Position numbers and translations under genes: made by a program. This document shows, piece after piece, positions 1 through 21,816 of a stretch of DNA of 64,000 nt (the first letter of the stretch is position 1; each line of letters begins with the position of its first letter). The notes under the pieces were generated by a model. The model was not told the origin of the DNA and did not search any database. It saw only the letters and a list, made by a program, of their open reading frames with translations. Origin of the DNA: Streptomyces sp. P3 (GTDB lineage: Bacteria > Actinomycetota > Actinomycetes > Streptomycetales > Streptomycetaceae); the NCBI RefSeq assembly GCF_003032475.1, contig NZ_CP028369.1, positions 5,580,001 through 5,644,000 on the forward strand, written 5' to 3'.

Positions 1-1137
1 CTCCAGCAGGATCCGCGCCTGCAGGCGGGCCAGGGCGGCGCCGAAGCAGGCGTGCGGGCCGTGTCCGAAGGCCAGGTGCGGGTTGGGGGTACGGGTGGGG
101 TCGAAGGTGCCGGAGCGGGGGAAGACCAGCGGGTCGCGGTTGGCGGAGGCCAGCAGGAGGACGATCCGGCGGCCGCGCTCGACGGGAACGCCGTCGATCT
201 CGGTGTCGGTGAGGGCGGTCCGCGCGGTGATCTTCGAGGGTCCGTCGGTGCGCAGGACCTCTTCGACGAAGGCGGCGGCCGCGCGCGGGTCGTGGGCGGC
301 GGTGCGCGCGGGGCCGGGGTGGGCGGCCGCCGCCTGGAGCAGGGCGGTGATCAGGTTGGTGGTGGTCTCGTGGCCGCCCAGCAACAGGGACACGCAGTTG
401 GAGACGATCTCCTCGGCGGTGAGGCGGCCTCCGTCCGTCTCGGCCCGTACCAGGGCGGTGACCACGTCGTCGCCGGGCCGGGTGCGGCGCTCGGCGACCA
501 CGCCGGTGAAGTAGTCCCACAGGGCGGTCCAGGCCCGGCCGATGCGGTCGACGTCCTCGGGCCCGGGTGCGGGCTCCACGATCCGGATCAGGTCGTCGGA
601 CCAGCGCTTGAGGCGGTCCTGGTCGGCGGCGGGCAGTCCGAGGAGGGCGCAGATGGTCAGCACCGGCAGGGGGAAGGCCAGTTCGCGTACGGCGTCGCCG
701 CCGCCTGCCGAGGCGAGGCGCTCGAGCAGGGTGTCGGCGGTGGCGGTGATCCGGTCCTCCAGAGCGGCGACGCGGCGCGGGGTGAAGGCCTGGGCGAGCA
801 GGGTCCGCAGCCTGCGGTGGTCGGCGCCGTCGGTGTAGAGGGCCCAGGAGGAGACCGGGGCCATCGCCGGCCGCAGGGCGGCGGGCAGATCCGCGAGGAA
901 GTGGCCGGCGGAGGGGGCGCAGCCGAAGGCGTCGTCCCGCAGGACCCGGCGGACCTGGGCGTGCCGGGTCAGGACGAGGCGCCCGCTCCCGAGGCCGGGG
1001 CAGTCGACGGTGGCGGGGCCGCGCGCCAGGAGGTCCAGGGCCGGTGCGGGGTGGTCGGCGTCGAGGGCGTCGAGCACCAGGCACGGGTGGTCCGTGCGCG
1101 CGTCCTCCTGACGGGTCGGGTGGTCCCGGTGGTGCAT
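1..1137 (-). CDS. Cytochrome P450 (3' end outside the window)
   Basis: Heme-thiolate monooxygenase. It needs ferredoxin and reductase partners that are not seen here. The heme loop FGHGPHACFG puts the ligand Cys near residue 364. The I-helix reads GGHETTTN near 255-262, so the usual acidic-Thr pair is present, and the K-helix ExxR is EVLR near 293-296. The ATG at 1137 is preferred because AGGAGG lies nine bases upstream; another ATG at 1155 overlaps the previous stop. It is the last visible gene of an eight-gene minus-strand operon led by a 20-codon ORF, so oxidation of a peptide or peptide-derived product is the likely role (inference). The substrate is unknown, and the C-terminus just after the heme loop lies outside the window. 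Confidence 0.93.
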   Translation of the reverse strand, partial: MHHRDHPTRQEDARTDHPCLVLDALDADHPAPALDLLARGPATVDCPGLGSGRLVLTRHAQVRRVLRDDAFGCAPSAGHFLADLPAALRPAMAPVSSWALYTDGADHRRLRTLLAQAFTPRRVAALEDRITATADTLLERLASAGGGDAVRELAFPLPVLTICALLGLPAADQDRLKRWSDDLIRIVEPAPGPEDVDRIGRAWTALWDYFTGVVAERRTRPGDDVVTALVRAETDGGRLTAEEIVSNCVSLLLGGHETTTNLITALLQAAAAHPGPARTAAHDPRAAAAFVEEVLRTDGPSKITARTALTDTEIDGVPVERGRRIVLLLASANRDPLVFPRSGTFDPTRTPNPHLAFGHGPHACFGAALARLQARILLE

Positions 1138-1151
1138 GACGGTCGGCCTCC

Positions 1152-1994
1152 TCATGCCGTGCGGCCGGCGGTGGGCCGGGTGGTGCGGGCCTGGGCGAAG
1201 AGCCCGGCTGCGGTGATCCGGTCGGCCAGGAGCGCGGTCTCCTCGGCCGTGCCGCTGCGCAGGCAGCTCTCCCCGCGGACGTCCATCTCGATGTAGGCGG
1301 TGATGATCTGGCGCAGCGAGAGGTCGGGCAGGAGCTCGGCGAGGACGGACATCCCGTAGTCGACGGAGTGCGAGTCGCCGGGCAGCAGGTACGTGGCGTG
1401 TGCGCCGTGCGGGACGTCCAGCCGGAAGGACTGCCAGCCGTCGCGGTGGCGGCGGCGCCAGATGTCCAGGGCGGCGGCATGGACTTCCGTGGAGGGCAGG
1501 GCCGCGAGGCGGCCGAAGGCGCCGGGGGCGCTGCCGGGGTCGTGGTGGCGGGTGTGGGGCGCTCCGTGCGGGATGCTGTGCAGGAACTTCTGCACGCAGG
1601 GCCCGACCTCCCCAGGTTCGGTCGGGGTGTGCAGCCGGTTGGCGAAGACGGTGTCGCCGAAGTCGCGGCGCACCTCGGTACGGATGGCGGTGCAGCGGGC
1701 GACCACGTCGCGGCCGCTGACGACGAGTGCCTCGCACACGCCGCTGGTCATGTAGTGCAGGGTCAGCTGGTGTGCCACCGGGTAGGCGCCCACGGCGAGT
1801 TTGGGCCACACGTCCTCGACGTCGCGGGCTCCGAGGGTGAGGGTGTAGCGGGTCACGACGCTCAGCTCGTGCCGTGCGATCAGCCGGTCGACGTGGGCGC
1901 GCAGGCCGGGCAGGAGGTATCCGTCCGGCTTGAGCAGCAGGACGCTGAGCGGGGCGCTGTCGCTCCCGTGGTCCGGGGTGTGGTCGTGGCGCAT
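1152..1994 (-). CDS. Nucleoside-diphosphate-kinase-like protein with extra C-terminal region
   Basis: 280 aa. The first ~130 residues follow the NDP kinase fold signature: KPDG at 22-25, YMTSG at 81-85, RRDFGD at 109-114 and NRLH ending in His122, the place of the phosphohistidine in NDP kinases. About 150 further residues match nothing I recognise. Housekeeping Ndk is ~140 aa and is not normally found in natural-product operons. A role in activating a substrate with NTP, or in phosphotransfer to the peptide, is inference. An RBS (GAGGAA) precedes the ATG. The stop overlaps an alternative ATG of the P450, indicating co-transcription. Confidence 0.72.
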   Translation of the reverse strand: MRHDHTPDHGSDSAPLSVLLLKPDGYLLPGLRAHVDRLIARHELSVVTRYTLTLGARDVEDVWPKLAVGAYPVAHQLTLHYMTSGVCEALVVSGRDVVARCTAIRTEVRRDFGDTVFANRLHTPTEPGEVGPCVQKFLHSIPHGAPHTRHHDPGSAPGAFGRLAALPSTEVHAAALDIWRRRHRDGWQSFRLDVPHGAHATYLLPGDSHSVDYGMSVLAELLPDLSLRQIITAYIEMDVRGESCLRSGTAEETALLADRITAAGLFAQARTTRPTAGRTA

Positions 1995-2027
1995 GGAGTG
2001 ATTCCTCGTTGGGTGGGCGGGCGCCGG

Positions 2028-2831
2028 TCAGGCGGCGAAGCCGAAGGCGTGGGTGCCGCGGGCCCGGGCGGTGAACACCCGGAAGGCACCGAGGGCTGCG
2101 GCCAGCCAGCCGGCGCCGGTGAGCAGCGCCCACAGCGCCGGGACGGCGACGGCAGTGCCGGGTGCGCCGTCGGCGAGCGCTCGTACGGCGGCCAGCCCGT
2201 GGGTCGGGGGCAGGGCGGTGGCGGCGGCCTGGATCCAGCCTGGCCAGAAGGTGACCGGGACCTCGGCTCCGCAGACGGCCATGAGCAGCAGGAACGACGT
2301 GTTGAAGACGATGTTGCGGGCGTCGGGCGCGGCCAGGACGAACGCGCCGACGAACAGGCCGAGGCTGTAGGTCGAGACGGCGGTGAGCAGCACGAGGCCG
2401 AGCAGGGCGGGGATGCTGGCGAGGGGCCAGTGGACTCCGAAGGCCGGGCCCACCGCCAGCAGCGACACCATCGCGGTCGCCGATCCGCTGAGGGGCCACT
2501 GCAGGCTGCGGCCGAGCATGACCCAGCCGAGGTCTCCGGGGGCGGCGGCCAGCAGGGGCAGTGTGCCGTGGCCGCGCTCCCAGCTGGTGGACACCACCAC
2601 GGTCATCGCCTCGATCACGCAGGCCATCACGCCGTTGCCGAGGACGAGGTAGCGGGTCTGGGCGGCGGAGCCGAGCATCTGCCCGACGAGTCCGAAGAAA
2701 CAGACCTGGCTGAGCATCCGGGTGAGCCAGCCGAAGGTCCAGCTGGTCCAGGTGTAGGAGGCGCGGAAGTCGGCGTAGGCGTTGGTGGCGCTGTATCCGA
2801 TGACGCGCAGGGTCCGCAGGAGTGGGTGCAT
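2028..2831 (-). CDS. ABC-2 type transporter permease
   Basis: About 267 aa with roughly six hydrophobic segments and the ABC-2 layout: short cytoplasmic N-terminus, then TM segments with conserved Gly/Pro turns. The ATG at 2831 is preceded by GAGGA; an in-frame ATG at 2843 would overlap the upstream stop instead. It is followed 33 bp downstream by the NDP-kinase-like gene. With the next permease and the ATPase it should form an exporter with two different membrane subunits, probably for the cluster product or for self-protection (inference from context). Substrate is not readable from sequence. Confidence 0.85.
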   Translation of the reverse strand: MHPLLRTLRVIGYSATNAYADFRASYTWTSWTFGWLTRMLSQVCFFGLVGQMLGSAAQTRYLVLGNGVMACVIEAMTVVVSTSWERGHGTLPLLAAAPGDLGWVMLGRSLQWPLSGSATAMVSLLAVGPAFGVHWPLASIPALLGLVLLTAVSTYSLGLFVGAFVLAAPDARNIVFNTSFLLLMAVCGAEVPVTFWPGWIQAAATALPPTHGLAAVRALADGAPGTAVAVPALWALLTGAGWLAAALGAFRVFTARARGTHAFGFAA

Positions 2832-2839
2832 CGCTGTCC

Positions 2840-3607
2840 TCATGTCTGGGCGAGCGTGCCGGTGGTCGTGACCCGGCGGAGCATGCGACCGATCAGGAGG
2901 GTTCCGGCGAGGGCGCCGGCCAGACCCAGGAGCGCGACGGCGCCGAGGGCGCCCGCGGGCCGCACCGGCGCGGCGGGGTCCAGGGCGGCCCGCAGCAGCC
3001 GGGCGCTCCAGGACAGGAACACCGCCTCCGACAACGGGCGCAGCCAGTCGGGGAGATGGGACACGGGGACGAGTACGCCGCCGAGCAGGTAGAAGGGGAA
3101 GCTGAGGGCGTTCTGCAGGACGCGGGCCGAGGGCGCCAGGACGAACAGGGCGCAGACGCAGCTCGCGGTGCCTGCCATCGCGAAGGCCGAGACGAGGACT
3201 GCGGCGAGGAACAGGCCGGGGTGCTCGATGCGGACGGTGAGGCCGAAGACCCCGTAGGCGACCAGCCAGGCCTCGGCGAAGGAGAGTGCGCCGAACAGGG
3301 TCACGGCGGCGATGCGGACGTTGACGACGGCCGGATAGGAGGCGGGCGCGGCCACCACCGCCTCCATGGTGCCGCGGTCGCGTTCCTCGCTGACGAGTTC
3401 GCCGGCGGTCTGCAGGGCCATCGACCACAGGGCCATCAGCGCGGGGGCGAGGACGGCGTAGCCGGCGAGGTCCGGGCGGCCGGCGTGGACCTGGATGGAG
3501 AGGAAGACCAGGGTGTACAGCGGGGTGGTGACGAAGACGTGGGCGATGTCGGGGGTGCGCAGGGTCATGAGCGCCTGGAGGCGGAAGACGGTCCACAGCG
3601 TCCTCAT
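2840..3607 (-). CDS. ABC-2 type transporter permease
   Basis: 255 aa with six predicted membrane spans. It contains the EERDRGTMEAVVAAP stretch (residues ~75-90) typical of ABC-2 permeases, where E-RG-T-E sits in the cytoplasmic loop that contacts the ATPase. Its ATG (3607) overlaps the ATPase stop by four bases, so the two are translationally coupled. It pairs with the neighbouring permease as a heterodimeric membrane domain. Confidence 0.88.
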   Translation of the reverse strand: MRTLWTVFRLQALMTLRTPDIAHVFVTTPLYTLVFLSIQVHAGRPDLAGYAVLAPALMALWSMALQTAGELVSEERDRGTMEAVVAAPASYPAVVNVRIAAVTLFGALSFAEAWLVAYGVFGLTVRIEHPGLFLAAVLVSAFAMAGTASCVCALFVLAPSARVLQNALSFPFYLLGGVLVPVSHLPDWLRPLSEAVFLSWSARLLRAALDPAAPVRPAGALGAVALLGLAGALAGTLLIGRMLRRVTTTGTLAQT

Positions 3608-4572
3608 CGGGTCACCTGCATGCCGCGGCCGTCGCCGATCAGGCTCAGGTACACCTCGGCCAGGCCCGGCCGTACGGTGCCCAGTTCGGTGACCCGGGCC
3701 CGGACGAGGGCGTCCAGGACAGCGGTGACGGCGGCGTCGCCCAGGACGTCGATCCGGGTGAGGTCCCCGTCCCGGGTGACGCCGGTGACGTCGGGCAGCA
3801 GGTGCAGGCCGTCGAGGACGTCCGCGGGTACGTTCCTGGCCTCGATCCGCTCGTGGGCGCTGATCCGGGCGGCGAGGGCGGCCGGCTCGTCGGTGGCGAT
3901 CACCTCGCCGTGGTCCATGAGGGTGACCCGGTCGCAGACGCTTTCGGCCTCGGCCATGTCGTGGGTGGTGAGGAGGATGCTGCGGCGTTCGGCGCGCAGT
4001 TCGCCGATCAGGTCCCGGAAGTCGAGGGCGGCGGCCGGGTCCATGCCGGTGGTGGGTTCGTCGAGGAGGAGCACCCGCGGGTCGCTGATCAGTCCGCGGG
4101 CGAGGTGCAGCCGCTGCTTCATGCCCCGGGAGAAGCCGTCGACGCGGTCGTCGGCGCGGTCGGCCAGCCCGACCCGGCGCAGGAGGTCGGTGATGCGGTG
4201 GCGCAGCGGGGCGCCGTGGAGGCCGTAGAGGGCGCCCCACAACTGGAGGTTCTGGCGGGCTCCGAGCCGTCCGTACAGGCCCCGGTCGCCGCCGAAGACG
4301 ATGCCGACCAGCGGTTTGACGGCGCGGGGGTCGGCGGCGACGTCGTGGCCGAGTACGCGTGCGGTGCCGCCCGTGGGGGTGAGGACGGTGGAGAGGATCT
4401 TGCAGAGGGTGGTCTTGCCGGCTCCGTTGGGGCCGAGCAGCCCGCGCACCTCGCCCTCCTCGACGGCGAGGTCGATGCCGTTCAGTGCGGTGACCGTGGT
4501 GTGCGGGCCGCCGCGCCGGGGGCGGTAGGAGCGGGTCAGGCCGCGTACGTCGATGGCGGGGGCGGCGCTCAT
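3604..4572 (-). CDS. ABC transporter ATP-binding protein
   Basis: 322 aa DrrA/CcmA-type ATPase. Walker A is GPNGAGKTT (~residues 46-54), the signature is FSRGMKQRL, Walker B is VLLLDEPTTGMD, and the switch His is in TTHDMAEAE. The ~90-residue C-terminal extension is typical of DrrA-like exporters. The start ATG overlaps the nucleotidyltransferase stop (ATGA), and the stop overlaps the permease start. It powers the two ABC-2 permeases downstream. Confidence 0.95.
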   Translation of the reverse strand: MSAAPAIDVRGLTRSYRPRRGGPHTTVTALNGIDLAVEEGEVRGLLGPNGAGKTTLCKILSTVLTPTGGTARVLGHDVAADPRAVKPLVGIVFGGDRGLYGRLGARQNLQLWGALYGLHGAPLRHRITDLLRRVGLADRADDRVDGFSRGMKQRLHLARGLISDPRVLLLDEPTTGMDPAAALDFRDLIGELRAERRSILLTTHDMAEAESVCDRVTLMDHGEVIATDEPAALAARISAHERIEARNVPADVLDGLHLLPDVTGVTRDGDLTRIDVLGDAAVTAVLDALVRARVTELGTVRPGLAEVYLSLIGDGRGMQVTR

Positions 4573-5675
4573 GCGTGCGTCCCGGCGTCGAGGGAGGCGA
4601 GGGAGGCCGCGGCCGCCGCGTGCTCGGCGGGGTCGACGAGTTCGCCGGCGACCAGGAGGAAGGAGCCCACGGGGGTGTGGGCGAGGGTGCCGGACGGGCC
4701 CGGGTCCAGGCGCAGCCGGTCTGTGGGGCAGCGTCCGGTGCCGGTGTCCAGGAGCATGCCCCACACGGGGAAGCCGGAGGCGAGGCGTTCGGGTACGCCG
4801 GCCGGCTCCGGCCGGGCGCCCGTTGCCGCGCGTCGCCGGTTCTCGTCTTCGGCGAGCGGGCCGGTCCGGGAGACCAGGGCCTCCAGCGTGGGGTGGGGGG
4901 CCGCGGCGTGGACGAGGGTGAGCAGTTCGTGTGCCTCGGGGGTCAGACGGAAGGCGTCGAGGGTGTCGGTGACGGCGCCGGTGTCCGCGAGTTCCCCGGT
5001 GTGCAGGAGCATCAGCACGTCGACGGCGTCCTTGGCGTGGAAGGGCCGCTGGACGCGCTCCTCCACGACCGACAGCAGGTCGGCGAGGCCCTGGCGGGCG
5101 GGCAGTGCCGGGCGCAGCGGGAGCGCGCCGAGGTCCCCGTAGAAAGCGGCGGTGCTGAGCTCCACCCGCAGCTCCTGTTCGAGGAGCGGGTCGGGCGAGG
5201 GCCAGGCCACGGTCAGCAGCACGTGCAGCGCGCCCTGCGGGTCGGTGACGAGGGTCAGTTCGTACGGTTCGGCATCGTGGCCGGCGGTCAGCGTGCGGGC
5301 CGCCGCCCACAGTTCGGCCTCGTCGGGCAGGACCAGGTCCAGATCGCCGACGGGGCGGACGACGTCCTGCGGGTAGCGGGCCGCCAGGGAGGGGCCTTTG
5401 ACGACGCGGCCGTGCGGGGCGGCCTCGGCGACTGCGGCACGCCACTGCTCGTATCGGGCGGCCCGGGTGCGGGCGCGGGCGAGTTCGTCGGTGCTGCCGC
5501 TGCCGAGCGGGACGCCTTCGCGGGCGGCAACGGAGATCACCAGCTGTGGCAGGGTCGCGGAGACCTCGCGGGCCACCGAGACCAGTTCGCGTCCGTCCTC
5601 GTGGTCCGGGACTGCGAGCAGTGTGTGCAGCAGGGTCAGGTCCAGGGGGACGGGCGGGGTGGCGGAGGTGGTCAT
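4569..5675 (-). CDS. NTP_transf_5-type nucleotidyltransferase family protein
   Basis: 368 aa. The motif KGPSLAARYP...RPVGDLDLVLP (residues ~94-118) matches the uncharacterised nucleotidyltransferase family PF14907: G-S-x-L followed by R-x-x-G-D-x-D, in which the D-x-D would bind metal. Members occur in several RiPP clusters; padeN of the paeninodin lasso cluster is one I recall. Their reaction is not established. The gene is coupled by 4-bp overlaps to the GNAT gene upstream and the ATPase downstream. A role in nucleotidyl or phosphoryl modification of the peptide is inference. Confidence 0.75.
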   Translation of the reverse strand: MTTSATPPVPLDLTLLHTLLAVPDHEDGRELVSVAREVSATLPQLVISVAAREGVPLGSGSTDELARARTRAARYEQWRAAVAEAAPHGRVVKGPSLAARYPQDVVRPVGDLDLVLPDEAELWAAARTLTAGHDAEPYELTLVTDPQGALHVLLTVAWPSPDPLLEQELRVELSTAAFYGDLGALPLRPALPARQGLADLLSVVEERVQRPFHAKDAVDVLMLLHTGELADTGAVTDTLDAFRLTPEAHELLTLVHAAAPHPTLEALVSRTGPLAEDENRRRAATGARPEPAGVPERLASGFPVWGMLLDTGTGRCPTDRLRLDPGPSGTLAHTPVGSFLLVAGELVDPAEHAAAAASLASLDAGTHA

Positions 5676-6544
5676 CGCGGGGTTCCGATGCTGGTCGGGG
5701 GCAGGACGGCGGCGAGTTCGGCAGGGCTGGTGGTCCAGTAGATGTGGTCGGTGCTCCAGCCCCGGGCCTGGAGGGCGGTCAGGGCGGCGGACCGGCTCTC
5801 GTCGGACCGGTGCACCACGTGCCCGAGGAGCGGCAGGCCGCGTCCGGCGGCGTGGGCGGCCGCCGCGGCCACCAGGGCGTCGCGGCACGCCCCGGCGTGG
5901 GGGGCGTCCGGCTCGACGAGGACGTCCCACAGCTCGGTGTGGGCGGCGGCGGTGACCGCGTCGGCCTGCTCGTCGAGCAACACCGCGTGGCCCACGGGCG
6001 CGCCGTCGAGCACGGCGACCAGGACGGTGGGTCGGGCGTCGAGCACCTCGGCGGCAGCCGCCGCGATATCGTCCTCGGCGGCCTGGCGGCCCTGTTCGTC
6101 GGCGCCTTGGCGGATCGCCCGGGCCGTCCAGACGCGGACCGGCCCCTGGTGCTCCTCGGTGGCCGCGACGATGCGCAGGCCGTCGGGGCGGGGCCGTCCG
6201 GTGAGCGGCCGGGTGAGTCGGACGTACGTCAGGGAGCGGCGCCAGGGCGGGGGCAGGCGGGTGCCGGCTGGCGTGCGGACCTGGAACACCGCGCTGCCGG
6301 GGTGCCGGCCGGCCAGGTCGGCCAGTACGGCTTCCAGCGTTCCGTCGGTGAAGGCGCCGGGGTCGGCGTACTCGACGAAGAGGCCGGGCTCCGTGCTGAG
6401 CGCGTCGGTGCAGGATCCGACGACGAGGCGGTGGCCGCCACGGCGTACGGTCAGGCCCGCGGCGTCCGCCTCGGTCCAGTAGCCGGGCGCGGGGTCGGGC
6501 GCAGGCAGCTGCTCGGCGGGCACCGCCGCCGGTGCGGCCGTCAT
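5672..6544 (-). CDS. GNAT-like N-acetyltransferase
   Basis: 290 aa. The second half (~residues 140-260) fits a GNAT fold. It has a VLVAVLDGAPVGHAVLL strand pair, then LWDVLVEPDAPHAG as the beta4/P-loop-like turn, and a helix leading to the GW in ALQARGWST near the end. The first ~130 residues are variable and may bind substrate. The family acetylates amines with acetyl-CoA. In this operon it could acylate a Lys or the N-terminus of the product, or confer immunity (inference). Start and stop overlap both neighbours by four bases. Confidence 0.65.
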   Translation of the reverse strand: MTAAPAAVPAEQLPAPDPAPGYWTEADAAGLTVRRGGHRLVVGSCTDALSTEPGLFVEYADPGAFTDGTLEAVLADLAGRHPGSAVFQVRTPAGTRLPPPWRRSLTYVRLTRPLTGRPRPDGLRIVAATEEHQGPVRVWTARAIRQGADEQGRQAAEDDIAAAAAEVLDARPTVLVAVLDGAPVGHAVLLDEQADAVTAAAHTELWDVLVEPDAPHAGACRDALVAAAAAHAAGRGLPLLGHVVHRSDESRSAALTALQARGWSTDHIYWTTSPAELAAVLPPTSIGTPR

Positions 6545-7743
6545 CGGACCGCCTCCGGCCGTACGGTCACCAGGAGCCGGCCGGCCACGTCGGCGGCCGC
6601 GGCGCGTATCTGCTCGGCGGTGACGGCGCGCAGTGCCGCGGTGTCGGTCTCGAGCGACCACGGCCGGGTCCCCGCTGCGGTGCGGTCGGCGGTGAGCCGT
6701 GCGTGTTCCAGGGGTTCTTCGCTGTCCAGGAGCAGGCTCATCTCGGCCTGGCGGCGGGCGGCCGCCAGGTCTTCGGGGTCCGGCCCCCGGTCGGCGAGCC
6801 GCGCGAGCAGGGCCCGTACGACGTCGACGACCTGGTCGGCCTGTGCGGGCGAGGTGCCGACCAGGACGCGCCAGGCCCCGGCTTCGCGGTAGCCGCGGTC
6901 CCAGGCCTGGAAGGTGTAGGACAGCTGCTGCTCTCCGCGCAGGGCGCGATACAGCAGGGAGGACGGGCTGGAGCCGAGGAGTTGGGCCAGGAGGGTGTAG
7001 ACCGGGCGCAGTGCGGAGCCGGCTGCGGGAGAGCGTGCGCCGAGGCACACCCAGCAGAAGTCGGCGTCCAGCGGCCAGGCGGCCACGGCCCGGTCACCCG
7101 GCTGCGCTGCGGTGAGGGGCAGTGTGTCCCGGGCCGCGGGGCGGGTGCCCCTGGGCAGGTCCCCGAGGACGGCCGGGATGCGCGGGCCGACGACGACCAG
7201 CGCGCTCGGCGCGTTCACCAGGGCGGTGTGCGCGGTGCGGATGTCGTCGAGCGTGACGGCCCGCAGCTGGCGTTCGTCACCTCCGACGGGGCGGCCCAGC
7301 GGGTGCCCGGGGAAGAGCGCGGCCAGTACGGCGTCCTGGACGGTGTCGGCGGGATCGGCTGCGGCTGCGGCCAGTTCCTGGAAGACCACCTCGCGCTCGT
7401 CGTCGAGCGCGCTGCGGTCGAAGTCGGGTGCGGTGTAGGCCCTCAGCAGCAGGGCTGCGACCTCGTCCGCGTCGTCCGCGTGGACCTGGGCGTAGTAGAG
7501 CATCTGCTCCAGGCCGGTCTCCGCGTTGGTACGGCCGCCGAGCCGCTCGACGCGTTCGCTGAAGGAGCCGCCGCCGTCCATGGGCACGGACATCACGAGG
7601 TGTTCGAGCAGGTGGGCGCAACCACCCCGGTCGGCCGGGTCGTCACGGGAGCCGGACGCGACGGCCAGGCACAGGCTGGTGGTCCTGAGCCGGTCGTCGA
7701 TCACGGGGATCAGGGACATCGGCACAGCGGTACCGAGGGTCAT
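6541..7743 (-). CDS. M16 family zinc metalloprotease
   Basis: 400 aa, the half-size M16B (PqqF/processing-peptidase-like) form. The inverted zinc motif HLLEH is at residues 44-48, and the third ligand Glu lies ~75 residues later in EREVVFQEL (~Glu123), so the enzyme should be active. No second, inactive M16 partner is encoded nearby, so it would have to homodimerise. M16 enzymes trim short peptides, which fits removal of a leader or tail from the 20-residue ORF product encoded just upstream. It is the first gene after the stem-loop at 7818-7859. Confidence 0.88.
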   Translation of the reverse strand: MTLGTAVPMSLIPVIDDRLRTTSLCLAVASGSRDDPADRGGCAHLLEHLVMSVPMDGGGSFSERVERLGGRTNAETGLEQMLYYAQVHADDADEVAALLLRAYTAPDFDRSALDDEREVVFQELAAAAADPADTVQDAVLAALFPGHPLGRPVGGDERQLRAVTLDDIRTAHTALVNAPSALVVVGPRIPAVLGDLPRGTRPAARDTLPLTAAQPGDRAVAAWPLDADFCWVCLGARSPAAGSALRPVYTLLAQLLGSSPSSLLYRALRGEQQLSYTFQAWDRGYREAGAWRVLVGTSPAQADQVVDVVRALLARLADRGPDPEDLAAARRQAEMSLLLDSEEPLEHARLTADRTAAGTRPWSLETDTAALRAVTAEQIRAAAADVAGRLLVTVRPEAVR

Positions 7744-7817
7744 GGGCCACCTTCCGGCCGGCGAGACGGGTACTGGGCGGGAGAACAGGGGGCGGTGGGC
7801 TGCGCCGCCGGGTGGGG

Positions 7818-7859
7818 CCGGACGGCCGCCGAAGCCGACTGGCTCCGGCGGCCGTCCGG
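7818..7859 (-). terminator. Stem-loop between precursor ORF and M16 gene
   Basis: Perfect 14-bp stem (7818-7831 with 7846-7859), with AGCC/GGCT pairing further inside the 14-base loop. It starts 12 bases after the stop of the 20-codon ORF and has no run of T. In many RiPP operons a hairpin directly after the precursor gene terminates most transcripts or stabilises the precursor mRNA, giving more peptide than enzyme. Confidence 0.7.
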
Positions 7860-7871
7860 TCAGCCGGGGCG

Positions 7872-7934
7872 TCAGCCCTTCTTGACGACCTTGTCGAGAC
7901 GCGGACGCATACCGACGGCGTGGTTGCGGTTCAT
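7872..7934 (-). CDS. 20-residue putative RiPP precursor peptide
   Basis: Encodes MNRNHAVGMRPRLDKVVKKG. The start ATG has a good RBS (AAGGGGA, six bases upstream). The ORF lies in a ~200-bp leader, is followed at once by a 14-bp stem-loop, and then by the M16 protease and tailoring genes on the same strand. The peptide has no Cys, Ser, Thr, Tyr, Trp or Phe, so lanthionine, thiazole or aryl cross-link chemistry is excluded. Available groups are His5, Asn2/4, Asp14, four Lys, three Arg, two Met and the C-terminal Gly. It is too short for automated gene callers. It could instead be a leader peptide for attenuation. Confidence 0.6.
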   Translation of the reverse strand: MNRNHAVGMRPRLDKVVKKG

Positions 7935-8141: not shown

Positions 8142-8342
8142 ATGAACCACCGACTCACGTCCGCCCGCCTGCCGAAGGCCGCGTCCGCACTGGTCCTGCT
8201 CTGCGCGGTGGCCGCACTCACCGCTGGCGCGGGCACGCTGACGGACCAGTCCGCGCAGCATCAGGCCCCGACCGCCGGGAGCATCGTTCCTGCCTGGAAC
8301 AACACCGGTTCCGCCGTGCCGCCGCACCCGCCCGTCATCTGA
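8142..8342 (+). CDS. 66-residue secreted peptide
   Basis: Starts MNHRLTSARLPKAASALVLL, a Sec signal with basic n-region and hydrophobic core to about residue 30; cleavage after an Ala near 28-30 is plausible. The mature part (~35 residues) is Pro-, Ala- and Thr-rich with one Trp and ends PPHPPVI. The RBS is weak (GGACGGAAGG, ~7-10 bases upstream). It is divergent from the candidate RiPP operon, shares its regulatory region, and is closed by the strong stem-loop at 8364-8398. No family recognised; it could be a signal or a second product. Confidence 0.6.
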   Translation: MNHRLTSARLPKAASALVLLCAVAALTAGAGTLTDQSAQHQAPTAGSIVPAWNNTGSAVPPHPPVI

Positions 8343-8433: not shown

Positions 8434-11400
8434 CTACGCCGTGCGGCCTAGCTCCCCCAGAAGGTCCGCGACATCCTGCTGTTCGGGCAGCCCCATGCCC
8501 TCGAAGATGTGCAGGGACTGCTCCAGGTACACCTGGGCGCCGTCCGGGTCGGCGCGGTCGGCGAGCACGCGGCCGCAGACCAGCAGGGCCTGCGCCTCGG
8601 CCCGTTCGTCGCCGCGCCGGCGGGCCATTGCGACCGCCTGACGAGCCATCGATTCGGCGGCCGGGAAGCGGCGCAGCATCCGCAGGGTGTCGGCGAGCCG
8701 GTAGCGGACGTGGACCTCGCGCCCGTCGTCGCCGGCCCGGTCACAGGCCTCCAGGGCCTCGGTGAGGGCGCGCAGCGCGTCCTCGTGGTGGCCTGCGGCT
8801 CCCAGGGCCACGCCCTTGACGTAGAGCGCGTACGCGGCTGCGGACTCGTCGTCCAGCTCCGCCACGGCTTCCAGCACCTCCCGGGCGGTGTCCAGGGCGA
8901 CGCCCGTGGCGCCGAGCCGCACGTGGGCGAGGGCGCAGTTCAAGAGGGTGGCGATCTCGCCGGAGCGGTGGCCGAGCCGGCGGGCCAGGGCGAGGGCCTC
9001 CTCGTAGTGGGTGATGGCCTCGGCGCTCTCGCCCAGGGTGACGGCGATCAGGCCCAGGTCGTTGAGGGCTTGCCGCAGGATCACCACGTCCTCCGCCGCG
9101 CGGCAGGCGCGCACCGCCAGCCCGGCATGGGTGCGGGCCGCCGCAAGCCGGCCCGCCCTCAGGGCGAAGGAGCAGCTCAGCCACTGGGCGCGACCGAAGG
9201 ACCGCTGGTCGCCCCGGCGCCTGGCGGCTTCGGCGACGCGCAGTGCGGCGGGGGCGAGCTGTTCGTGGCGCAGATCCCCGACGAAGGGGCTCAGCGCCAC
9301 CAGCAGATCGGTGGCGGCGGGCAGCAGCCTGCGGTGCGGCTCGGCTTCGGCGTGGTCGGCGCAGGACTGTACCGCGAGGACGGCCGCCTCGAAGTGCTCG
9401 GCGGCCCAGGCCCGTGCGGCCTGCGGGTCGGGGAACGGGGCGGCTTCGGCTCCGAGTGACACCAGGGAGCCGACCACCGAGTCCCCGGGGACCAGCTGGG
9501 CGAAGGCCTGGCACGCGGTGGCGAGCAGGTGGCCGAGCAGGTTCTCGTAGGCGCGGTCGGCCTCGGCCGCGTCGTGGGCGCGGGCACGCGCCCGGCCGAA
9601 GGCCCGCAGCAGGTCGTGGATGCGGTACCGGCCCGGCGCCGGGGACTCCATCATGGAGGCGCTGACGAGTGCCTCCAGTGCCTCCTCGGTCTCCGCCTCG
9701 GCGCTCTGCAGGATCGCGCCGGCGGCCTGCGGGCCCACGTCGGCGGCGGTGGCCACGGCGATGAGGCGAAAAGCCCGGGCCTGCTCGGATGACAGCTGGT
9801 GATAGCTGAGGTCGAAGGCCGCTTCGACGGCCAGGTCGCCCACCCGCATCTCGTTCACCCGACGGGCCTCGTCGGTGAGCCGGGCCGTCAGGGCGGCGAC
9901 GGGCCAGCCGGGCCGGGCGGCGAGACGGGCCGACACGATGCGGGTGGCGAGCGGCAGCTGGCCGCATGCGCCCACCAGGGCGTGGACGTCCGCACGTTCG
10001 GCGTCGAGCCGGCCGGCGCCGATGATCCGGCCGACCAGGGTGACGGCGTCCTCGGGCAGCAGCCGGCCCAGACCGAGTTGTACCGCTCCTTCGAGGCTGG
10101 GCAGTTGGGTGCGGCTGGTGACGAGGACCGCGCAGCCGGGGGCGCCGGGGACCAGATGGCGCACCTGGGCGGCGTCGGCCGCGTTGTCCAGGACGAGGAG
10201 CACGCGCCGACCGTCGAGGACGGTGCGCAGCAGCCGGGCCCTGGCGCCGACGGTGTCGGGCAGCAGGTGGAGCGGGCAGCCGAGTCCGTCCAGGAAGGCG
10301 CCCAGCACGATCGCGGGGTCCTCGGGGTCGGGGTCCATGCCGCGCAGGTCGGCGTACAGCTGCCCGTCCGGGTAGTGCCCGCGGACCAGGTGCGCGACGT
10401 GCAGGACCAAGGAGGTCTTGCCGATGCCGCCCATGCCGGAGACTGCGGCGAGCGGCAGGCTGCGGCGGTCCGGTGCGGTGAGCAGGGCGTGCAGGGTGGC
10501 GATCTCGGCGGTGCGGCCCACGAAATCGGGTACGGAACGCAGCAGTTGGGCGGGTGCGGTCCGGGGGAAGGCGCTGCCGCGCCCGCCGCCCGGGGCGGTC
10601 CCGGGGGCGGGCGTCGGTGGCGGGCCGTCGTCCGGGCCGGCCGCCACGGCAGTGACGGCGGCCGTGGCGGGTCGGCCGGTGCCGGCTGCGGGGCGGGGCT
10701 CCGGTAAGACCGCCGCCGACGGGGTCCGGGTCGCCGGGGACGTCGCGCGGGCCGTTGCCGGGGTGGTCCGCGGGACCGGCGCCGGGGTCGCCCGCGGCGT
10801 CCTTTCCGGGACCTCCTCCAGTATCTGGCGGTGCACGGCCGCCAGTTCGCGGCCGGGCTCCATGCCCTGCTCCTCGATGAGGGTGTGGCGCACCCGCTGG
10901 AACAGGGCCAGCGCCTCGGTGCGCCGTCCGGTGGCGTGCAGGGCCCGCATCAGCAGGCCGTGGAGCCGCTCCCGGCCCGGGTGTTCGGCCGCGAGGGCGG
11001 TCAGGTCGGGTATGACGGCCCGGTAGCGCCCCTGTGCCAGTTCCAGGTCGTACTGCTCCTCCAGCAGGGCGGTGCGTAGTTCGCCCCACCGCTCACGCTG
11101 CTGGTCGGCGAAGGGGCCCGGCACTTTCGCCAGGGGCTCTCCGCGCCACAGCCCCAGGGCGGCGGCGACCAGTGCTGCGGCCTCCGCGAGGCGCCCCGCG
11201 TCACGTGCCGCGGCCGACCGTTCGGCCAGCTCCGCGGCCTCCAGGGCGTCCACGGAGCAGCCCGGGACATCGAGCCGGTAGCCGTCGCCGACCGAGACCA
11301 GGATCCGCGGAGCGGAGGGGTCGGGCTCCAGGAGGCGCCGCAGCCGCCACGCGTACGTCCGGAGGTTGGCGACCGCCCCGTCCGGGGGCTCTTCCCCCCA

Positions 11401-11589
11401 GACCCCGGTGACCAGGTCCCACATCGGGACACCCAGCCCCGCACGCATGAGTAACTGGGCCAGTACCGCCTGCTGTTGCGGTGATCCGGGCCCGATGGCC
11501 CGTTCACCGCCTGTGACGCGCAGTGGTCCCAGCACCGCGAACTCCAGCGTGCTCGATTCCTCGCCGCCGGCGGACACCCGCACGGACAT
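8434..11589 (-). CDS. AfsR/SARP-family regulator with NB-ARC and TPR domains
   Basis: 1051 aa. Domain order: winged-helix trans_reg_C (~15-105), bacterial transcriptional activation domain (~110-255), a Pro/Ala/Thr-rich linker (~265-345), an NB-ARC/STAND ATPase with Walker A GMGGIGKTS and Walker B VLLVLDN, then TPR-like helices to the C-terminus. Such large SARPs activate secondary-metabolite operons by binding 11-bp-phased direct repeats; a matching triple repeat is at 8049-8078. The ATPase and TPR part may sense a ligand or partner. It starts at an ATG preceded by GGGGGA. It is the probable pathway activator of the 1-7.9 kb cluster. Confidence 0.95.
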   Translation of the reverse strand: MSVRVSAGGEESSTLEFAVLGPLRVTGGERAIGPGSPQQQAVLAQLLMRAGLGVPMWDLVTGVWGEEPPDGAVANLRTYAWRLRRLLEPDPSAPRILVSVGDGYRLDVPGCSVDALEAAELAERSAAARDAGRLAEAAALVAAALGLWRGEPLAKVPGPFADQQRERWGELRTALLEEQYDLELAQGRYRAVIPDLTALAAEHPGRERLHGLLMRALHATGRRTEALALFQRVRHTLIEEQGMEPGRELAAVHRQILEEVPERTPRATPAPVPRTTPATARATSPATRTPSAAVLPEPRPAAGTGRPATAAVTAVAAGPDDGPPPTPAPGTAPGGGRGSAFPRTAPAQLLRSVPDFVGRTAEIATLHALLTAPDRRSLPLAAVSGMGGIGKTSLVLHVAHLVRGHYPDGQLYADLRGMDPDPEDPAIVLGAFLDGLGCPLHLLPDTVGARARLLRTVLDGRRVLLVLDNAADAAQVRHLVPGAPGCAVLVTSRTQLPSLEGAVQLGLGRLLPEDAVTLVGRIIGAGRLDAERADVHALVGACGQLPLATRIVSARLAARPGWPVAALTARLTDEARRVNEMRVGDLAVEAAFDLSYHQLSSEQARAFRLIAVATAADVGPQAAGAILQSAEAETEEALEALVSASMMESPAPGRYRIHDLLRAFGRARARAHDAAEADRAYENLLGHLLATACQAFAQLVPGDSVVGSLVSLGAEAAPFPDPQAARAWAAEHFEAAVLAVQSCADHAEAEPHRRLLPAATDLLVALSPFVGDLRHEQLAPAALRVAEAARRRGDQRSFGRAQWLSCSFALRAGRLAAARTHAGLAVRACRAAEDVVILRQALNDLGLIAVTLGESAEAITHYEEALALARRLGHRSGEIATLLNCALAHVRLGATGVALDTAREVLEAVAELDDESAAAYALYVKGVALGAAGHHEDALRALTEALEACDRAGDDGREVHVRYRLADTLRMLRRFPAAESMARQAVAMARRRGDERAEAQALLVCGRVLADRADPDGAQVYLEQSLHIFEGMGLPEQQDVADLLGELGRTA

Positions 11590-19479: not shown

Positions 19480-21816
19480 TTGTCAGAACCGCTCACACGA
19501 CGAAGAGTGCTGATGGGCATGGCGGCCATGACGGTCGCCGCCGTCGTCACGCCCGCCCTGGCGGGCCCTGCACATGCCGCTTCCACCCGCCCCCTGCCAC
19601 TCCCGCCGCTGCGCATCCCCAAGCTCGACCAGGGGCTCGAGCAGCAGCCCGACGAGAAGGTGCAGTGGCTGACGGACGCCAAGATCGGCATGTTCATCCA
19701 CTGGGGTCCCTACTCCGGCCCAGCCAAGGGCGAGTGGTACATGGAGAACGCCGCCATCACGCCGGAGAACTACAGGAAGTACGTCACCGACGCCACCGGC
19801 GAGCAGTTCACCGGCAGCGCGTACAACCCGGCCGACTGGGCCCAGCTGGCGAAGGACATGGGCGCCAGGTACACCGTGCTCACCACTCGCCACCACGACG
19901 GTTTCGCGCTGTGGCCGTCCACCCACCCGAACGCCTGGCACGCAGGTCAGGCGCCGCTGCAGAAGGACTTCGTCGGTCAGTACATCACTGCCGTACGCAA
20001 TGCCGGACTGAAGGTGGGCCTCTACTTCTCCCCGCTGAACTGGCGCTACCCCGGCTACTACGACGTTCGGGGCACCAACTGCCTTCCCAACGCCTGGGGT
20101 TACACCACCGATCCGACGCACAAGGAGAACGCGCGGATCATGAAGAACGAGGTGTACCAGCAGGTCAAGGAGCTGGTCACCCAGTACGGAAAGATCGACG
20201 ACATCTGGTGGGACGGCGGCTGGCTGGGCCAGCAGGGCTCCGACGCCGACGCCGCCTTCTTCTGGGAGCCCGGCAAGTTCCGCGACACCTCGAACGAGTG
20301 GCCGGTGGACGCCGCCTACGGCGACACCGACCCCGCCACCGGCAAGCCTCTGGGCCTGACCGGCCTGGTCCGCAAGCACCAGCCCGACGCCGTCACCACT
20401 CTGCGCGCCGGCTGGATCGGCGACTTCGCCAGCGAGGAGGGCCCCTCCGTACCGACCGGCGCCATCCGCACCGGCAAGGTGGCGGAGAAGACCTTCACCA
20501 TCGGCGGCGCCTGGGGCTACCGGGCCGGCTCCGGCGTGATGAGCTTCGGCACCGCCATGAACATCCTGGTCAACGCCTGGGTGCGCAACATGACCTGCCT
20601 GGTCAACGTCGGCCCCGACCGCACCGGCGCGGTCCCCACCGACCAGCAGACCCTGGTACGGCGGATCGGTTCCTTCCTGACCACGTGCGGGGAGGCCGTG
20701 TACAGCACCTGCGGCGGCCCGTGGAACCCGGTCGACGGCAAGTACGGTTTCACGTACAAGGACAAGACCTTCTACATCCACCTGCTGCCCGGCTACAGCG
20801 GCACCTCCTTCACCACCCCGCAGATCGGCGACGCGACGGTCACCCGGGTCTTCGACGTGGCATCGGGGACCGACCTGCCGTTCAGCGTGGCTGGCAGCGG
20901 CGAGGTGACCGTCACCGGCATCAACCGCACCCGCATCCCCGAGGACAGCGTCGTCGGCGTCACCCTGGACCGGACGGTCCAGCCCGCCGACATCGCCGCC
21001 GGCAGGACCGCCACAGCGAGCAGCGAGGAGAGCTCCAAGGGCAACACGGCGGCCAAGGCGGTCGACGGCTCCACCGCGACCCGCTGGTGCGCGAGCAACG
21101 GCAACACCGGTCACTGGCTGAAGGTGGATCTGGGGGCGGCCAAGTCGGTCACCGGCGCCCGGATCGCCTGGGAGCTGGACGCCACCAACTACCGGTACAG
21201 GATCGAGGGCTCCACCGACAACACCAACTGGACCATGCTGGCCGACCGCACTGGCACCACCAGCACCAGCCAGGTCCAGGTCGCCGTGTTCAGCGCCTCC
21301 GCCCGGTACGTGAGGGTGACCGTCACGGGCCTGCCTTCCGGAACCTGGGCGTCCATCCGCAGTCTGGAGGTGTACGACCGTCCCTTCGCCGCCGACCTGG
21401 GCACGTTCAGGGTGGTCAACCGCAAGAGCGGCAAGGTACTGGACGTCAACGCGGCCTCCAGCGCCGACGGCGCGGCCGTCATCCAGTGGCCATGGACCGG
21501 CGGCACCAACCAGCAGTGGAAGCTGCTGCCCAACACCGACGGCTCCTACCGGCTGTCCAACGTCCGCAGCGGCAAGGTCCTGGACAGCCCCGGCGGCTCC
21601 GCCGAGGGCGCCGCCCTGGACCAGTGGACCGACACCGACGCCGGCAACCAGTGGTGGAAACTGGTCCCCGCGACCAGCGGCTACTACCGGCTCGTCAACG
21701 TCGGCAACGGCTGGTGCGCCGACGTCAAGGACGCCTCCACCGCGGACGGCGCCGCAATCATCCAGTGGCGCGACACCGGCGGCACCAACCAGGAATGGCA
21801 GGTCATCGCCCTGTAA
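19480..21816 (+). CDS. Secreted GH29 alpha-L-fucosidase with F5/8C and CBM13 domains
   Basis: 778 aa from TTG 19480 (GGAGAG seven bases upstream); ATG 19456 is an alternative. The N-terminus TRRRVLMGMAAMTVAAVV is a twin-arginine-type signal. The GH29 domain (~45-430) contains KIGMFIHWGPYS, TTRHHDGFALWPS and DDIWWDGG, whose Asp is the nucleophile position. A beta-sandwich follows, then an F5/8-type C domain (~510-635) and a three-repeat CBM13 trefoil (~645-778; QQWK, QWWK, QEWQ). It hydrolyses terminal fucose outside the cell. Divergent partner of the GH43-like gene. Confidence 0.93.
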   Translation: MSEPLTRRRVLMGMAAMTVAAVVTPALAGPAHAASTRPLPLPPLRIPKLDQGLEQQPDEKVQWLTDAKIGMFIHWGPYSGPAKGEWYMENAAITPENYRKYVTDATGEQFTGSAYNPADWAQLAKDMGARYTVLTTRHHDGFALWPSTHPNAWHAGQAPLQKDFVGQYITAVRNAGLKVGLYFSPLNWRYPGYYDVRGTNCLPNAWGYTTDPTHKENARIMKNEVYQQVKELVTQYGKIDDIWWDGGWLGQQGSDADAAFFWEPGKFRDTSNEWPVDAAYGDTDPATGKPLGLTGLVRKHQPDAVTTLRAGWIGDFASEEGPSVPTGAIRTGKVAEKTFTIGGAWGYRAGSGVMSFGTAMNILVNAWVRNMTCLVNVGPDRTGAVPTDQQTLVRRIGSFLTTCGEAVYSTCGGPWNPVDGKYGFTYKDKTFYIHLLPGYSGTSFTTPQIGDATVTRVFDVASGTDLPFSVAGSGEVTVTGINRTRIPEDSVVGVTLDRTVQPADIAAGRTATASSEESSKGNTAAKAVDGSTATRWCASNGNTGHWLKVDLGAAKSVTGARIAWELDATNYRYRIEGSTDNTNWTMLADRTGTTSTSQVQVAVFSASARYVRVTVTGLPSGTWASIRSLEVYDRPFAADLGTFRVVNRKSGKVLDVNAASSADGAAVIQWPWTGGTNQQWKLLPNTDGSYRLSNVRSGKVLDSPGGSAEGAALDQWTDTDAGNQWWKLVPATSGYYRLVNVGNGWCADVKDASTADGAAIIQWRDTGGTNQEWQVIAL

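Follow-up and report, generated by a model that had tools for sequence, protein, structure and literature searches.

A 20-codon peptide gene heads a recurrent, apparently portable cassette of M16 peptidase, GNAT-like, nucleotidyltransferase and exporter genes in Streptomyces

A stretch of 64,000 nucleotides from Streptomyces sp. P3 (contig NZ_CP028369.1, positions 5,580,001 to 5,644,000; hereafter the window) carries an operon that begins with a gene of only 20 codons. Comparison with related loci shows that the encoded peptide is, as judged by its conservation, a gene product that belongs with an M16 peptidase, a GNAT-like protein, a nucleotidyltransferase and an ABC exporter. The best reading of these genes is that they constitute a portable cassette of the RiPP (ribosomally synthesized and post-translationally modified peptide) type, which would have recombined with many small-molecule pathways. 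The features of the window operon are as follows.

7872..7934, minus strand: precursor or carrier peptide gene, 20 codons, MNRNHAVGMRPRLDKVVKKG; relatives in 27/27 testable loci
7818..7859, minus strand: long GC-rich hairpin, attenuator- or terminator-like, directly 3′ of the peptide gene
6541..7743, minus strand: M16 (pitrilysin family) peptidase, 400 aa; PF00675 match at E 3.3e-23, HLLEH motif
5672..6544, minus strand: GNAT-like protein, 290 aa; PF00583 match at E 0.00041, just above the cut-off; alignment of 15
4569..5675, minus strand: NTP_transf_5-like nucleotidyltransferase, 368 aa; KG...DxD motif, predicted model with pLDDT 93.4
3604..4572, minus strand: ATPase of the ABC exporter, DrrA-like
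2840..3607, minus strand: ABC-2 permease 1, by Pfam
2028..2843, minus strand: ABC-2 permease 2, by Pfam
1152..1994, minus strand: nucleoside diphosphate kinase (NDPK)-like protein, 280 aa, accessory (window subtype); NDK match below the cut-off
1..1137, minus strand: cytochrome P450, truncated at the window edge; the complete 419-aa protein is at 13878-15137 of L004, a stretch that reaches past this edge

An earlier reading made from the sequence alone had described a 20-codon open reading frame (ORF) with a ribosome-binding site and a stem-loop directly after it, at the head of a tightly coupled operon, and this description is borne out. The A/G-rich sequence gaaagggg ends 7 nt 5′ of the ATG, and a stem of 19 unbroken base pairs (G-U allowed) begins 12 nt past the peptide stop codon; a stem of this length was equalled in 0/100 shuffles and in 0/150 windows of 90 nt along the 64-kb stretch. 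The M16 gene starts 128 nt after the peptide stop codon. All genes lie on the minus strand in the order peptide, M16, GNAT-like, NTP_transf_5-like, ABC ATPase, two permeases, NDPK-like and P450, with 4-bp overlaps at M16/GNAT, GNAT/NTP_transf_5-like, NTP_transf_5-like/ATPase, ATPase/permease 1 and permease 1/permease 2, and gaps of 33 nt and 14 nt before the NDPK-like and P450 genes. The M16 protein has both the profile match and the HxxEH motif expected of this peptidase family. In the host genome, a single contig of 9.85 Mb, there are two further M16 homologues (29% identical), and a whole-genome search with the peptide returned only the window copy. The operon extends about 7.5 kb past the window edge (L004), where it encodes a pair of dCTP-deaminase-like proteins, a LysRS/EpmA-like protein of 858 aa (whose YqcI/YcgG N-domain is weak, E 0.0014, below the cut-off), two methyltransferases, a lysA-like decarboxylase and, last, a P-loop protein (AAA_33). 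The identical gene set and order, from the peptide through the P-loop protein, are found in Streptomyces sp. NRRL S-87, and the peptide there differs by one residue.

Related loci, which are referred to by L numbers, were searched for with the enzymes and never with the peptide as the query. The nucleotidyltransferase matched in 43/394 genomes of the family and lay beside a GNAT-like gene in 16 of the 39 surroundings viewed (four weak matches were left out). A GNAT profile applied at E 0.001 matched in 30/394 genomes of the class and 32/392 of the genus; the strong matches (E < 1e-70) numbered 4 and 14, the next best being 8.7e-11 and 1.1e-6, respectively. The strong matches added 12 genomes, giving a total of 28 with the module, one of them from another family. 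In Streptomyces sp. Mg1, S. goshikiensis, ADI95-16 and HUAS 15-9 the module resides on giant linear plasmids, and the peptide ORF was located in the plasmid records of Mg1, S. goshikiensis and HUAS 15-9, whose incomplete gene tables list no gene there.

Exactly one peptide of 19–25 residues is encoded in each of the 27 loci that have upstream sequence (L071, at a contig end, was left out), and none in the 31 control loci (591 kb), the search motif having been taken from the peptides themselves. The consensus is MxRNHxxx[LM]RPRLDK[VI] followed by a basic tail. Within the PRLxK core, P, R, L and K are invariant in the 25 distinct sequences, with R before P in 23 and D after L in 20, and the C-terminal residue varies (G, A, K, R, E, T, H or N, with Asn in L164 only). 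In four close pairs the peptide ORF is 95–99% identical, as compared with 77–83% for the upstream flank; it exceeds the upstream flank in 4/4 pairs and the downstream flank in three, L065 and L067 being identical downstream. An unbroken stem of at least 12 bp lies 3′ of the peptide gene in 24 of 28 loci (the 27 module loci and L171). The stem is shorter in L065, L067, L161 and L165, and L065 and L067 have a bulged long hairpin. The distribution among testable and control loci led us to reject a chance ORF, and we hold it to be nearly certain that the peptide is a real gene product acting in trans. One feature of RiPPs in the broad sense, a ribosomal precursor conserved with its pathway genes, is present here; the other, cleavage or modification of the precursor, is suggested only indirectly, by the co-occurrence of the N-terminal His part with M16 and by the M16 remnant of L064 (see below). 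The proposal of a real precursor peptide in a RiPP-like cluster gains support from the comparison, in which no homologous cluster without the short ORF was found among the testable loci. The sequence-only reading also stressed that the peptide lacks Cys, Ser, Thr and aromatic residues; Cys, Phe, Trp and Tyr are indeed absent from all 27 peptides, but Ser and Thr occur in some.

The enzyme set pointed out at the same time is conserved in part. The GNAT-like gene is present in 28/28 loci, which reflects how most loci were found, the nucleotidyltransferase in 27/28, the ABC ATPase in 27/28 (that of L062 only at the stretch edge and that of L024 in the adjoining L167) and M16 in 26/28. On gene content, the conserved core is the peptide with the M16, GNAT-like, NTP_transf_5-like and ABC proteins, whereas the NDPK-like protein and the P450 are accessory and mark the window subtype. 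The NDPK-like protein was considered as a core member and rejected, as 13/394 family genomes match and only 4 strongly; it occurs in the window, L005, L020, L022, L024 and L157, and a similar domain suspected by eye in L156/L064 was unsupported by BLAST. The domain labels given to two of the window proteins apply to several relatives, but the window proteins themselves fall below the Pfam cut-offs. The NTP_transf_5 (PF14907) match has 18.2 bits and E 0.002 against a curated cut-off of 31.2, while L158 reaches 33.4 bits and several others also carry PF14907. For NDK the values are 13.8 bits and E 0.055 against a cut-off of 27, so the window protein is not placed among the NDP kinases; several relatives carry the NDK domain. 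A polymerase-beta-type nucleotidyltransferase fold with a DxD motif is supported by the predicted model, and the matches to MenT and ANT, in a comparison that covered listed families only, indicate fold and not function. Searches of solved structures gave no matches with the nucleotidyltransferase profile and nothing convincing with the GNAT profile. In one locus, L158, the GNAT-like protein and the nucleotidyltransferase are fused.

Several observations couple the peptide to the peptidase. The N-terminal His part of the peptide is present in 25/25 loci with M16 and absent in 2/2 without it (L064 and L165), a split with a chance of 1 in 351 if the loci are taken as independent and relatedness is ignored. 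An ORF of 44 aa that lies between the peptide and GNAT genes of L064 matches the C-terminal end of M16, with scores of 72 against the L070 protein and 66 against that of L156, neither of which was reached in any of 300 shuffles; among eight M16 proteins compared, six gave 0/300. This remnant stands beside a peptide that has no N-terminal part, so the decay of M16 at this locus seems to have gone along with the loss of the peptide's N-terminus. Two natural recombinants point in the same direction. L155 has M16 and a peptide like those of L162 (M16 69% vs 47% to L066), whereas its GNAT, nucleotidyltransferase and ATPase are like those of L066 (58, 60 and 76% vs 35, 33 and 60% to L162). L164 is like L162 in peptide, M16 and GNAT (M16 69%, GNAT 58%) and like L163 in the nucleotidyltransferase (62%), the exporter (72–78%) and five downstream genes (55–82%). 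By these similarities, the peptide goes with M16 in both recombinants. Across 22 loci, peptide distances correlate with those of M16 (r 0.63), the nucleotidyltransferase (0.56), GNAT (0.50), the ATPase (0.42) and the permeases (0.36 and 0.28), and the module proteins correlate among themselves too (0.51–0.93). We consider it very probable that M16 is the cognate peptidase of the peptide.

The genes around the core were surveyed by Pfam scans that covered part of the neighbours, with none for L070-L072, L155 and L160-L162. The nucleotide link suggested from the window is supported by this comparison, as several clusters hold nucleotide or nucleoside genes: two dCTP-deaminase-like genes in the window cluster and S-87, two thymidylate-kinase-like genes and a NUDIX gene in L062, a thymidylate-kinase-like gene in L154, a PRK/uridine-kinase-like gene with HAD in L020/L022, AdoHcyase in L156, and TruD, two 2-oxoglutarate (2OG)-Fe oxygenases, an aminotransferase and a radical S-adenosylmethionine (SAM) protein beside the module in L068/L069. 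Aminoacyl-tRNA synthetase-like proteins, which may be ligases or serve in self-protection, occur in the window cluster and S-87 (LysRS-like), L020/L022 (MetRS-like), L157 (class II) and, as a hisS gene and a HisZ-like gene, Mg1-type plasmids. In L171, on plasmid pSMg1-1 of Streptomyces sp. Mg1, a hisS-annotated gene and a HisZ-like gene (1730-3031 and 19918-21240) flank the module, and self-protection or amino-acid activation is possible for these two. L163 and L164 have homologous accessory genes and different peptides, and L156 and L064 share four accessory proteins (51–75%) despite differing peptides. Since homologous accessory genes can accompany different peptides, it is doubtful that the peptide is tailored by the whole cluster. 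A P-loop protein near 4/28 modules (L063, L066, L155 and L159) appeared HPr-kinase-like by eye, but it gave no Pfam family in L066 and a weak AAA match in L159 and was not used. Separately, L024 (5520-14629) and L029 (5081-14500) have in common a block made up of families F45-F49 and F25; L024 also has the peptide module, and L029 does not. In L024 the block comprises a SPASM radical SAM protein, a PhpK-like B12 radical SAM protein, a histidine phosphatase, an NDPK-like protein, a protein related to the L004 carbamoyltransferase and one further protein of 530 aa.

Our preferred hypothesis for how the cassette works is that M16 acts on the N-terminal MxRNHxxx part and leaves a peptide consisting of [LM]RPRLDK[VI] and the tail, a step for which the coupling described above argues well. 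The nucleotidyltransferase and the GNAT-like protein might then join the LRPRLDK part to a nucleotide or another phosphorylated small molecule, which is a weaker proposition. The variable accessory enzymes (for the window operon, the dCTP-deaminase-like, NDPK-like, P-loop, P450, methyltransferase and LysRS/EpmA-like proteins) would make the small molecule, and the ABC transporter would export the resulting conjugate. In this view the peptide serves as a carrier or handle to which different warheads can be fitted, as in Trojan-horse peptidyl-nucleotides, and is not what makes the products differ. Taken as a whole, the proposal that a trimmed peptide is conjugated to a phosphorylated small molecule is the most likely of the readings considered but falls somewhat short of an even chance in our estimate, and conjugation to a nucleotide- or phosphate-type molecule, taken by itself, is put slightly lower. 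More tentative still is the wider suggestion of a modular family in Actinomycetota, in which an M16-matured LRPRLDK handle would be coupled by the polymerase-beta-type nucleotidyltransferase and its GNAT-like partner to varied nucleotide or phosphate warheads and exported, with the peptide-M16, transport and warhead parts swapped independently.

A number of points weigh against this hypothesis. The conjugate, the product and the enzyme activities are predictions from the genes. L159 has the peptide, M16 and the GNAT-like gene, with no match to the nucleotidyltransferase or ABC proteins in the 20 kb fetched, and the GNAT-like family appears, on inspection by eye, to lack the usual acetyl-CoA loop. 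No nucleotide gene is found among the scanned neighbours of L063, L066, L158, L163, L165 and L065; L063, L066, L158, L163/L164 and L165 show sugar, radical-SAM or phosphoenolpyruvate-utilising genes, and L065 shows nothing telling. The payload may, therefore, be a sugar or another phosphorylated compound. As for M16, the scores of the L064 remnant against the L154 and L161 proteins were reached in 2 and 6 of 300 shuffles, and its best alignment to the window M16 falls on another part of the protein. The module genes are linked, so that correlated distances are partly expected, and the Mantel permutations ignore relatedness.

Known classes, judged by their defining enzymes, do not fit the cluster. 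No lanthipeptide synthetase or dehydratase, YcaO protein or lasso cyclase was found by Pfam in the core and nine further proteins of the window neighbourhood. In PqqA- and mycofactocin-type pathways a radical SAM enzyme acts on the precursor; there is none among the scanned window-cluster proteins, and some relatives have one. The peptide of microcin C receives the nucleotide at its C-terminal Asn, which is not conserved here. Microcin C-type peptidyl-nucleotides (PMC9239234) do resemble the window operon, in that a very short ribosomal peptide is encoded together with an exporter and with nucleotide chemistry, and, by analogy, the peptide of the cassette may serve as the handle for a nucleotide warhead. 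Unlike microcin C, the scanned window-cluster proteins include no ThiF/MccB-like adenylyltransferase by Pfam; M16, the GNAT-like protein and the polymerase-beta-type nucleotidyltransferase are present instead. A nucleotidyltransferase is also linked to a RiPP in the case of pseudomycoidin, a phosphoglycosylated lasso peptide, where a putative nucleotidyltransferase beside a kinase modifies the phosphorylated peptide (PMC8498205), but the window cluster has no lasso genes by Pfam and its peptide no conserved Ser acceptor. M16 proteases have a RiPP precedent in PttP1/PttP2, which remove the leader of a class III lanthipeptide (PMC10885120); those are heteromeric, whereas a single M16 gene is present here, and neither a lanthipeptide synthetase nor a Ser/Thr/Cys core was found. 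The sequence-only reading had also allowed for a match of the operon to a known non-peptide pathway. No such match was found, with the limit that malayamycin A and polyoxin/nikkomycin were compared by description and not by locus sequence: the L068/L069 genes (TruD, 2OG-Fe oxygenases, aminotransferase, radical SAM) resemble the malayamycin set (PMC8724604, section 11), and the terms 'peptidase' and 'ABC transporter' are absent from that review.

Alternatively, the peptide might be a scaffold, as in pearlins or amino-group carrier proteins, on which the product is built and from which it is released peptide-free, M16 serving to release the product or to clear the carrier. Pearlins (3-thiaglutamate and the ammosamides) do involve a small ribosomal peptide as a possible scaffold or carrier (PMC10885120, PMC9016710, PMC12424672). 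The accessory genes shared by L163/L164 and by L156/L064 with different peptides are what one would expect if the tail stands outside the product chemistry, and the aminoacyl-tRNA synthetase-like proteins of some clusters would also be accommodated. We rank this reading second, as less likely than conjugation, because no PEARL (small LanB-like) enzyme was found by Pfam among the scanned window-cluster proteins, pearlin proteases are described as M50 or TldD/E (PMC10885120), the exporter and the nucleotidyltransferase are core here, and the C-terminal residue of the 19-25-aa peptide, the usual site of attachment, varies. A conventional RiPP, in which the accessory enzymes modify side chains and the modified peptide is itself the product, would agree with the layout of precursor, hairpin, peptidase, transferases and exporter and with the P450, radical SAM or methyltransferase genes of some clusters; it appears improbable given the four residues missing from all 27 peptides, the independence of peptide type and accessory set in the two locus pairs just named, and the resemblance of many accessory enzymes to those acting on nucleotides, sugars and amino acids.

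Two regulatory roles can also be envisioned. M16 and the ABC exporter might mature and export a peptide pheromone for neighbouring TPR regulators: within the stretches fetched, tblastn matched the window SARP regulator in 17/28 loci, strongly in about ten, and a helix-turn-helix-TPR regulator lies just upstream in L062. However, the GNAT-like protein and the nucleotidyltransferase would then be idle, and a small ORF ending in WN(S/N)T (see below) is the better signal candidate, as it also accompanies SARP in loci without the RPRLDK peptide. We regard a pheromone as quite unlikely. Least probable of all, and rejected, is control of the operon in cis by an arrest or leader peptide working through the hairpin, even though most loci do have a short ORF and strong hairpin ahead of the operon. 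The peptide gene of L156 is solitary: it lies at a distance of 6.3 kb from M16, on the opposite strand and convergent with a regulator gene, and can therefore act there only in trans; furthermore, the peptide follows M16 in the recombinants, and its N-terminal part is lost together with M16.

Conjugation of a trimmed peptide, if it occurs, would have wider consequences. The cassette recurs, swappable, in many Streptomyces clusters, some of them apparently pathways to nucleoside-type antibiotics, and it suggests a new route by which small toxic molecules are linked to a peptide. An entire class of such clusters would have been overlooked because the key gene is an ORF of 19–25 codons. The RPRLDK motif together with M16, the GNAT-like protein and the nucleotidyltransferase would provide a handle to new nucleoside- or sugar-type antibiotics, a role would be revealed for a family of uncharacterised nucleotidyltransferases, and peptides could be coupled to nucleotide-like drugs with a system taken from nature. 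No description of the peptide motif, PF14907 or the module was recognised in the open-licence literature.

Relatives of the core enzymes also occur in other settings. In L073-L091, mostly from one other genus (g14), the nucleotidyltransferase family adjoins a SARP regulator without M16, the GNAT-like gene or the peptide, and in L079 its neighbours include a nonribosomal peptide synthetase-type protein and an MFS transporter. A plasmid of S. microflavus (H17) likewise has only the nucleotidyltransferase, beside a SARP gene, with no peptide motif. More distant nucleotidyltransferase relatives (28–32%) are found in L092-L094 and L096, where a conserved block of families F13 and F20-F24 adjoins on the opposite strand; L092-L094 also have ABC genes. 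In L025 and L026 an M16 relative (41–43%) is followed directly by an NDPK-like gene, and the 10 kb fetched contain neither the peptide nor a GNAT-like gene.

Upstream of the peptide gene, the window contains two further features.

8142..8342, plus strand: small ORF, transcribed divergently from the peptide gene; hydrophobic N-terminus, C-terminal end ...PAWNNTGSAVPPHPPVI
8434..11589, minus strand: AfsR-like SARP/NB-ARC/TPR regulator, by Pfam

The small ORF is perhaps part of the regulation. It belongs to a family of about 60–110 aa with a hydrophobic N-terminal segment and, at the C-terminus or close to it, WN(S/N)T, in most cases as ...WNSTGS. A search of the open-licence literature for the strings WNSTGS, DWNSTG and WNNTGS found no paper containing them. 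These ORFs adjoin AfsR-like SARP-NB-ARC-TPR regulator genes at the 3′ end, in most cases on the other strand, and are a candidate for a secreted signal peptide of the SARP regulators. They were selected by eye in 24 loci, the scan having returned unrelated ORFs as well: the window, L005, L020/L021, L022, L063, L073, L075-L086, L088-L091, L164 and L167. L171 carries a VNNTGSS form.

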